A DNA stretch of 64,000 nucleotides from Gordonibacter massiliensis (ex Traore et al. 2017) (GTDB taxonomy: Bacteria; Actinomycetota; Coriobacteriia; Coriobacteriales; Eggerthellaceae), in contig LT827128.1 of NCBI GenBank assembly GCA_900170005.1, forward strand, positions 496,001 through 560,000, in the 5' to 3' direction. The notes below the pieces were generated by a model. It did no database searches. It was not told the origin of the DNA and worked only from the letters and a program-made list of their open reading frames with translations. Within the stretch, counting starts at the first letter, position 1, and each line of letters begins with the position of its first letter. The position numbers and the translations under genes were made by a program. This document shows positions 14,450 to 16,778 of the stretch, one piece after another.

Positions 14450-14592
14450 CTTGCCCGCCGACCGTATTTCAACCGTCGCCGTGTCGCCCGAACCTTGCAC
14501 GGATCTTGCAGGGCGACCGCGCGTATCTTGCCCGCCGGTCGCACGGACCTTGCACAGGCGCTGCGCGAACCTTGCATGACGGCGCTGACTCG
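14450..14592. repeat. degenerate 22-bp tandem array with CTTGC blocks
   Basis: CTTGC occurs at 14450, 14494, 14505, 14527, 14549 and 14571. All spacings are multiples of 11 bp (44, 11, 22, 22, 22). Units read like CTTGCACAGGCGCTGCGCGA with a degenerate GC-rich tail. It lies immediately upstream of comF. It could be a helically phased protein-binding array or simply a decayed tandem repeat. Confidence 0.6.
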
Positions 14593-14637
14593 GCAGCGGA
14601 TAGGTGGCGGTTTGATGCAGCGGCCGACCTCCGAAAA

Positions 14638-14818
14638 GCACGAAAATCACCGCTGTGAAGCGTTTCGAGGGGTTTGAACAGCTTCGAGGCATCCCAAACA
14701 GGTTTGTGCCATGCGCGAACGCGTCGACGCGTTTCTCTGATCAGGGGTTTTCCGAGGTGGCGATCGGTGCAGGTTGAAAACTGGCAAGAGCATCGCTTCA
14801 CAGCGGTGATTTTCGTGC
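14638..14818. repeat. 181-bp element bounded by perfect 25-bp inverted repeats
   Basis: Arms 14638-14662 and 14794-14818 are exact reverse complements (starting GCACGAAAATCACCGCTGTG). The 131-base interior has no ORF of note. The structure fits a MITE-like element or a large structured transcript. It sits directly before repeat B copy 2. Confidence 0.75.
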
Positions 14819-14836
14819 GTTTCAGGTCGAGTCCGG

Positions 14837-15174
14837 TGTTAAGCCAGCATTTACATGCACTTGGCCGGGTTGCCGTCCTGAGCATGCAACAGTCCGGTGG
14901 ACTGTTGCACTCCCGAGCACGCGGAGCGGGCGCAGGGAGGCGTCGTGAAGCGATGAGCGGCGCGAGCCGCCGGAGTCGAAAGATCCCCCGCGGCGTTAGC
15001 CGGGACGCCTTCGGCTGGCGTCAGCCGAAGCGCCTCCGTCCCCGCTTCGCGGGGCCTCCCTGCGCCCGCTCCGCGTACTCGGGGCCTCGTCTGTCCGGCG
15101 GGCTGTCGAATGCTCCGCTCGCTCAGGATGACAACTCGTCGGCCTGCGGAATGTCGATGCCGGTTTAACAGCGG
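14837..15174. repeat. intergenic palindromic repeat, family B copy 2 (long form)
   Basis: This begins GTGTTAAGCCAGCATTTAC and ends GATGCCGGTTTAACAGCGG, with CGCTCAGGATGACAACTCG near the right end. Compared with copies 1 and 3 it has extra internal palindromes (GCAACAGTCCGGTGGACTGTTGC at 14885-14907, CGCGGAGCGGGCG, and a GGCGTCAGCC block), and lengthens to 338 bp. Confidence 0.8.
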
Positions 15175-15203
15175 AAGCCCTGCCATTCCGCATCAAACCT
15201 TCC

Positions 15204-15334
15204 GGGGGGGGGGCTGCGGGGCACGCTTGCGGCTGCCTCTTATACACACCTGACGCTGCCGACGAACACCCTTGTGGAGATGCCGGTGTGGCCCGTACCA
15301 TTAAAAAAGGGGGGGCTGCGGGGCACGCTTGCGG
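15204..15334. other. assembly artefact: Nextera-type adapter, index, P5-like tail, poly-A and poly-G
   Basis: At 15233-15265 the sequence matches the 33-base Nextera transposase read-through adapter at 31 positions (it contains TCTTATACACA and CTGACGCTGCCGACGA). Eight bases (15266-15273) fall where an index would be, and 15274-15302 match the reversed P5 tail at about 21 of 29 positions, ending CCGTACCATT. Then follow six A (15303-15308) and seven G (15309-15315), as produced by two-colour chemistry past the fragment end. The 19-base string CTGCGGGGCACGCTTGCGG occurs both before (15214-15232) and after (15316-15334), so about 102 bp here is probably not in the organism. Confidence 0.9.
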
Positions 15335-15794
15335 GGCGGCCCGGCACGACGTCGATCGTTTTCCTGTGGGTGCGACCGCGCTCCGCTGCACGGGCGCCGC
15401 GCTCCTCCAATCTGCCATGCCTCGGTCTGGCAAGGGCGCGCGCGTTACCTTCGAACCTATTCGTGCGTTTATGCGGGCTGCGCTTCCGAGGGTTTTCCCT
15501 ATCTGGTAAACTGAACGGTGCTTCTTTCGAGTCTGTAGTTGCGGGGCGTTTGCCCCAAGTCCATGGCAGATGCGGTCGAAAGGATCCACGTAAGTCGCAC
15601 CGGCTCGACCGGTGGGCGATCATGGCGCATCCTAGAGGTAAGTCGCACCGCCCGGCTATTAACGCGGCATACGGCCGCGACGGGCGAGAGGGCACCCGGT
15701 GCAAGCTTGGGCCCCGGTGCGCGAGTGTGGGGGCAAAGACTAGGTCAGTCGAAAGGGGCGCTTTGAGAGAGAAACGGATGGAGGAACACCGGAT
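15335..15794. other. leader region upstream of the solute-binding protein gene
   Basis: No gene is seen. A candidate extended -10 (TGGTAAACT, ending 15512) lies about 280 bases before the ATG. A 13-bp direct repeat GTAAGTCGCACCG occurs at 15590-15602 and 15638-15650. I tested it by eye for tmRNA, RNase P, SRP, T-box and cobalamin cores and found none. Confidence 0.5.
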
Positions 15795-16778
15795 ATGAAG
15801 CGTATGAAGGCGCTCGCGTGCTGTGCGGCGGCGGCCTGTTTGGCGATGGTGCTGGCAGGGTGCTCGTCGCAGCAAAGTTACACCCCTCCCGAGAAGAGCC
15901 CGACCGTGTCGTCGCCGACCATCAGCAAGGCCGGCACGCTGCGCGTGGGAGTGAACGCGGGTTCTCCTCCGCTGGCCGGCTCGCCCTCCTCTTCGTCCAA
16001 GATCGTGGGCATCGACGTCGACGTGGCCGCCGCGCTCGCCGACGAGCTGGGCCTGAAGCTGGAGATCGTCGACGTGGGCACGGATCCCGAAGCCGCGCTC
16101 AAGGAGAGCAAGGTCGATATCGTCATGGGCGTCGGCTCCGAAACCGACGTGTCGTTCTGGAGATCCGCGGCGTACCTGCCCAAGGGCGTGGCGCTGTTCT
16201 CCACGACGTCGAACACGACGGTTCCCACGAAGGCGTCCGCTCCCAAGATTGCCGCCCAGGTGTCGTCCACGAGCTCTTGGCAGGTCACCAACGAGTTCGG
16301 CGAAGATGCGCTCGTGGCCGAGAACGACCTCAAGAGCGCGTTCTCCGACCTCGCTGCGGGCACCGTGCAGTACGTGGCGGCCGACGCAATCATCGGTATG
16401 TACGCCGCGCACGGCGGCGGGTACGACGCGCATATCGTGGCGCTCATGCAGCAGCCCGGCGGCTACTGCGTCGGAGTGCTCGACACGAACACCGAGCTGA
16501 AGCAGGCCGTGTCCGCCGCGGTCGAAACCCTCACGGGCGGCGGCATGGTGTCGGTCATCGAGATGAAGTGGCTCGGCGCGGCGCTCGACACGTCCGCGCT
16601 GCCGCTCACGGCCGGCGCCTCGTCCACGAAGTCCAACGGCACGGGCACCACGACCCAGCAGGGCAACGCGTCTGCGGCGAGCAGCGCAACCGACGGCGAC
16701 GAGCCGGTCGCCGACGAGGACGAGGGCGACCCCGCCAGCAACGCCGGCCAGAACGCCGTGCAACCGCAGGCCGCATAA
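15795..16778 (+). CDS. extracellular solute-binding lipoprotein (SBP family 3-like)
   Basis: A 327-residue lipoprotein: signal MKRMKALACCAAAACLAMVL with lipobox LAGC. The mature part starts with a Ser/Thr/Pro linker and then GTLRVGVNAGSPPLAG, IVGIDVDVAAALADELGLKL, and VDIVMGVGSETDV, the pattern of amino-acid-type periplasmic binding proteins. A Ser/Thr/Gly-rich and acidic low-complexity tail occupies the last 60 residues. No permease or ATPase gene lies beside it, so it may be an orphan receptor or serve a distant transporter. Upstream region holds a 13-bp direct repeat. Confidence 0.85.
   Translation: MKRMKALACCAAAACLAMVLAGCSSQQSYTPPEKSPTVSSPTISKAGTLRVGVNAGSPPLAGSPSSSSKIVGIDVDVAAALADELGLKLEIVDVGTDPEAALKESKVDIVMGVGSETDVSFWRSAAYLPKGVALFSTTSNTTVPTKASAPKIAAQVSSTSSWQVTNEFGEDALVAENDLKSAFSDLAAGTVQYVAADAIIGMYAAHGGGYDAHIVALMQQPGGYCVGVLDTNTELKQAVSAAVETLTGGGMVSVIEMKWLGAALDTSALPLTAGASSTKSNGTGTTTQQGNASAASSATDGDEPVADEDEGDPASNAGQNAVQPQAA

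Follow-up and report, generated by a model that had tools for sequence, protein, structure and literature searches.

The window analysed here is a stretch of 64,000 nucleotides, positions 496001-560000 of one contig of 3,948,172 bases (contig C1 of genome G000, genus Gordonibacter). Around 15 kb, it contains a raiA RNA (RF03072; 15522-15757, + strand), which scored 147.5 bits against a gathering score of 101.3 and lies upstream of the gene for a family 3 solute-binding protein (SBP_bac_3, 15795-16778). The nearest matches of this protein were found in Gordonibacter sp. 28C (91%) and G. pamelaeae (77%), and these relatives place the source in or next to the genus Gordonibacter. A dispersed native repeat lies within 14900-15184 and holds an imperfect inverted repeat of 41 bases (14912-14952 and 15043-15083, 90% complementary). 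A query of 1201 bases, 14900-16100, gave 91 matches in its own genome, the listed ones falling nearly all in query positions 1-285, and the repeat also has many matches in G003 and fewer in G001, both from the same genus.

Between the dispersed repeat and the raiA RNA, the + strand carries a series of elements in the order of an Illumina Nextera or Nextera XT adapter on the i5 side. The series begins at a G10 run (15204-15213), where the genomic sequence that is repeated later starts, followed by the first, genomic copy of a 26-base direct repeat (15207-15232), the Nextera transposase end and Read 1 primer in reverse-complement sense (15233-15265), an 8-base i5 index slot (15266-15273), the reverse complement of P5 (15274-15302), six As read in the sequence beyond the adapter end (15303-15308), and the second copy of the direct repeat, which starts with G7 (15309-15334). 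The 33-base Nextera i5 read-through sequence, given as a trimming adapter in a passage of PMC6460022 and with its first 19 bases in a passage of PMC11046850, is identical to 15233-15265 at 31 of 33 positions. Allowing ≤3 mismatches, it matched the window once and 100 dinucleotide shuffles not at all, and the runner-up 33-mer on either strand of the window reached 20/33. The slot between the Read 1 primer and P5 is exactly 8 bases long. The P5 part, 21/29, is the top 29-mer of the window on both strands (runner-up, 19/29), and by itself this is modest evidence, though the part is placed exactly as the adapter design predicts. The original prediction of a Nextera transposase adapter followed by an index-sized gap and a P5-like tail is thus recovered element by element.

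The two copies of the direct repeat, G7 followed by CTGCGGGGCACGCTTGCGG, are 100% identical over 26 bases, with 76 bases between them and a start-to-start distance of 102. Two flanking copies had been noted before; they are present and identical, but their length had been understated. The earlier estimate of about 102 excess base pairs agrees with the spacing of the repeat. In the + strand text of the window, the G10 run and the A6G7 run (15303-15315) were the sole matches to the patterns G8+, C8+, A6G5+, C5T6+, A8+, and T8+. Poly-A and poly-G had been described after P5; the A6 is there, but the G7 (15309-15315) belongs to the direct repeat. The accompanying suggestion of a two-colour instrument was reasonable because G is unlabelled in two-colour systems, as stated in a passage of PMC11140927. 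However, since the Gs sit within repeated genomic sequence, a poly-G tail is unnecessary, and a two-colour origin is possible but not supported for the Gs of the window copy; the genome's own G run accounts for the G7, and a further copy described below (copy 3) has an A/C-rich tail.

In pattern searches of the contig, the adapter starts at three places, on the + strand only: 511233 (the window copy), 480005, and 1874138. For the index slots, we compared kit sequences given in parts of PMC7589761, PMC9702565, and PMC4712552; Table A2 of PMC7589761 gives S507 as AAGGAGTA and shows P5 with the index after it, and a passage of PMC4712552 also gives index 507 as AAGGAGTA. Copy 2 (480005-480067; L006:1006-1068) breaks off after a match of 62 of 63 bases to the adapter, and its slot, TACTCCTT, is the exact reverse complement of S507 (8/8). 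The window copy is error-rich in its slot and P5, whereas copy 2 is nearly perfect until it breaks off. Copy 3 (1874138-1874203; L004:1500-1565) matches at 91% over 66 bases, and its slot, TACACCTC, fits S507 at 6/8. In the window copy, the slot ACACCCTT fits the reverse complement of S507 at 4/8, the best among the 11 indices tested, with three others at 3/8. Since S507 outscored every other index tested in each of the three copies, a single library is the probable source of all of them. No direct repeat of ≥10 bases brackets the adapter at copies 2 and 3. A search of the same genome with the i7-side adapter gave nothing significant, the best hit (E 0.121) being the shared transposase end of copy 2. 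Copy 2 is placed after a 203-aa ORF (L006:343-954), and a 322-aa ORF (L006:1045-2013) has its listed start within the adapter.

At copy 3, the relatives G004 and G002 provide a direct comparison. Homology of the locus to both genomes stops at position 1494 of L004 and restarts at 1643, and the adapter occupies the intervening part from ~1498, with its P5 end at ~1565; the site thus measures 148 bases in G000 vs 23 bases in each of these two of the four relatives. The 77 bases past P5 are A/C-rich rather than G-rich (A 28, C 26, G 14, T 9). In G001, the left alignment runs to the same point and resumes 275 bases further on, and G003 showed scattered matches only in the one comparison that covered it. 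The gene at this site belongs to the NrfD family (E 1.8e-27), residues 41-299 of its frame aligning to profile positions 45-309 with 40 residues ahead. A single open frame spans the site in G004 and G002, its N-terminal part being MLGPLIVCYLFLGGTGAGACLVLA. In G000, the frame is listed at L004:548-1474 on the - strand, and its GTG start corresponds to residue 22 counted from the ATG of the G004/G002 frame. Copy 3 therefore cuts the start of the NrfD-family gene in G000.

In none of the four other genomes of the genus did a 70-base similarity search find the adapter, which favours an artefact. No empty site for the window copy was seen in these four, where the downstream match starts only at 15448-15461. 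Gordonibacter sp. 28C (L028) has 72 bases vs 868 in the window (14580-15447), and the eight loci compared, probably from six genomes, have no convincing match to 15178-15460 (best E 0.010). The relatives lack most of the ~870 bases around the window copy, and we count the missing empty site against an artefact. The flanks of copy 2 gave only short, weak matches outside G000, in two of the four other genomes of the genus (best E 1.9e-5).

Beyond the genus, the search with the 70-base adapter matched 23 of the 396 genomes of the class, G000 included, at E ≤ 0.001. This count is a lower bound, because two candidates per genome were scored and the window's own copy was not on the list; conversely, matches at E up to 0.001 can include chance matches of ~20 bases, so the weakest may be due to chance. 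Among the 34 matches listed outside G000, nine are ≤80 bases from the start of a contig, each of them on the - strand, so that the synthetic end points outward; three others, each on the + strand, end ≤5 bases from a contig end (G056:C31, G056:C35, and G252:C85). This outward orientation is that of contig-end adapter contamination of draft genomes. In contrast, the window copy is sealed inside a single 3.95-Mb contig, and trimming of contig ends would therefore not remove it. The other 22 of the 34 listed matches, about two thirds, are interior or not verifiably at a contig end, and these count against an artefact. With a 27-mer and ≤2 mismatches, six of the 396 genomes of a phylum sample that overlaps the class set were matched, G000 included. 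Exact copies of the 27-mer are present in unrelated genomes of the phylum, and the reversed 27-mer, used as a control, was found in none of the genomes listed from this sample.

In other genomes, where the primer is followed by 8 bases, these slots are identical to kit indices at L092 (S517, which we take to be the name of this index), L097 (S502), L139 (S503), and L140 and L145 (S508), and agree at 7/8 at L093 and L099 (S517) and at L147 (S508). Two places are off the kit list, one seen as both L091 and L146 (5/8) and the other as L142 (4/8), and they count against an artefact. In a native repeat, no slot would match a manufacturer's list. At L095 (G043:C9, around locus position 1393), in another member of the family, the transposase end is followed directly by its inverted copy, like a mate-pair junction adapter.

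From these sequence comparisons, we consider it nearly certain (probability ~0.99) that the adapter stretch is an assembly artefact of ~102 excess bases, made of synthetic Nextera read-through and not of DNA of the organism. The order and spacing of the adapter elements, the duplication of the flanking 26 bases, the two further copies, which S507 also fits best, and the surplus at copy 3 relative to two relatives all argue for this, as does the same structure with other kit indices elsewhere; the original prediction of adapter read-through built into the assembly is borne out by them. For the kind of read, the join at a G run, and the assembly step behind it, we infer the following course. A short fragment of a Nextera library would have been read through, the read leaving its genomic insert at ...CTTGCGG (15232) and passing from there into the transposase end with the Read 1 primer, then the i5 index, then P5, and finally A calls. 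The untrimmed tail may have been kept on a contig end or on a gap-filling read and then joined to the next piece by a short G-run overlap, the break plausibly falling at the G10 run (15204-15213). Such an overlap would explain why the second 26-base copy, where the assembly would resume, starts with G7. In the outcome, two copies of 26 genomic bases would enclose 76 non-genomic bases, an excess of 102.

The direct repeats that flank the stretch could also suggest a real mobile insertion, in which a whole or fragmentary Tn5-like element would have duplicated 26 bases of its target site; the first 19 bases of the adapter resemble a Tn5-type transposon end. Tn5 has two inverted ends and leaves target duplications of 9 bases, whereas the window copy has a repeat of 26 bases and one transposon end only, with no inverted repeat bracketing the stretch in the repeat analysis of the window. 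What follows the transposon end is the kit's own order of primer, index slot, and P5, the slot varies by genome along the kit list, and the lack of a bracketing repeat at copies 2 and 3 also speaks against insertion, which we regard as very improbable and in practice refuted.

We give the same very low probability to the idea that adapter-ligated molecules were truly in the sequenced DNA and had recombined into the chromosome, for example during strain construction. The presence of the sequence is compatible with it, and nothing beyond that favours it; the adapter occurs at three places in one contig with tails that are error-rich and variously truncated, which fits read ends and not cloned DNA, and A/C-rich noise runs for 77 bases after copy 3. 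Least probable of all is that a native intergenic repeat, rich in GC, resembles the adapter by chance. The stretch does adjoin the native dispersed repeat, but the absence of any match in the 100 shuffles and the 20/33 of the next-best 33-mer refute it, and exact 27-mer copies in unrelated genomes of the phylum, beside the empty reversed control in the genomes listed, point the same way.

As an assembly artefact, the adapter stretch is an ordinary one, with low interest beyond curation. It holds no biology but a practical warning, in that at least three untrimmed adapter tails remain in a genome that represents its species and consists of a single contig of 3.95 Mb, and repeat, ORF, or promoter analyses at 15.2-15.3 kb would be run on a synthetic oligonucleotide. 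Three ORFs from the list of those of 80 aa or longer cross 15233-15308 and should be ignored: 14996-15589 (-), 15240-16763 (-), and 15274-15798 (+). The earlier advice to discard any annotation at 15.2-15.3 kb is right for 15233-15308, but the raiA RNA and the dispersed repeat nearby are real and should be kept. The index slot offers a simple test of artefact vs native repeat, since its sequence agrees with the manufacturer's list and differs between libraries. We put at about even odds that species-representative genomes, those in a single contig included, carry adapter remnants inside long contigs often enough for false gene breaks and false proteins to result.

The contig as a whole offered a few observations in their own right. 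It has 34 runs of ten or more Gs; all 13 of those between 1.36 and 2.22 Mb are on the - strand, and 17 of the 21 elsewhere are on the + strand. A supposed rule that G runs of this genome are followed by CTT was rejected: the five runs examined are followed by CT, but G9CTT occurs only four times in G000. Among 20 sampled stretches of 15 kb, GC skew is negative in six of the seven that fall at 1.25-2.45 Mb, and 12 of the remaining 13 have a positive skew. The two arms of the contig look unequal, and either a real asymmetry or a misjoin could be behind this. The same 20 stretches contain one N, in L158. Their G+C content is 0.487 at 1650000-1665000 (L157), 0.512 at 3250000-3265000 (L165), and 0.610-0.696 in the other 18, and the two low-G+C stretches are possible foreign islands.
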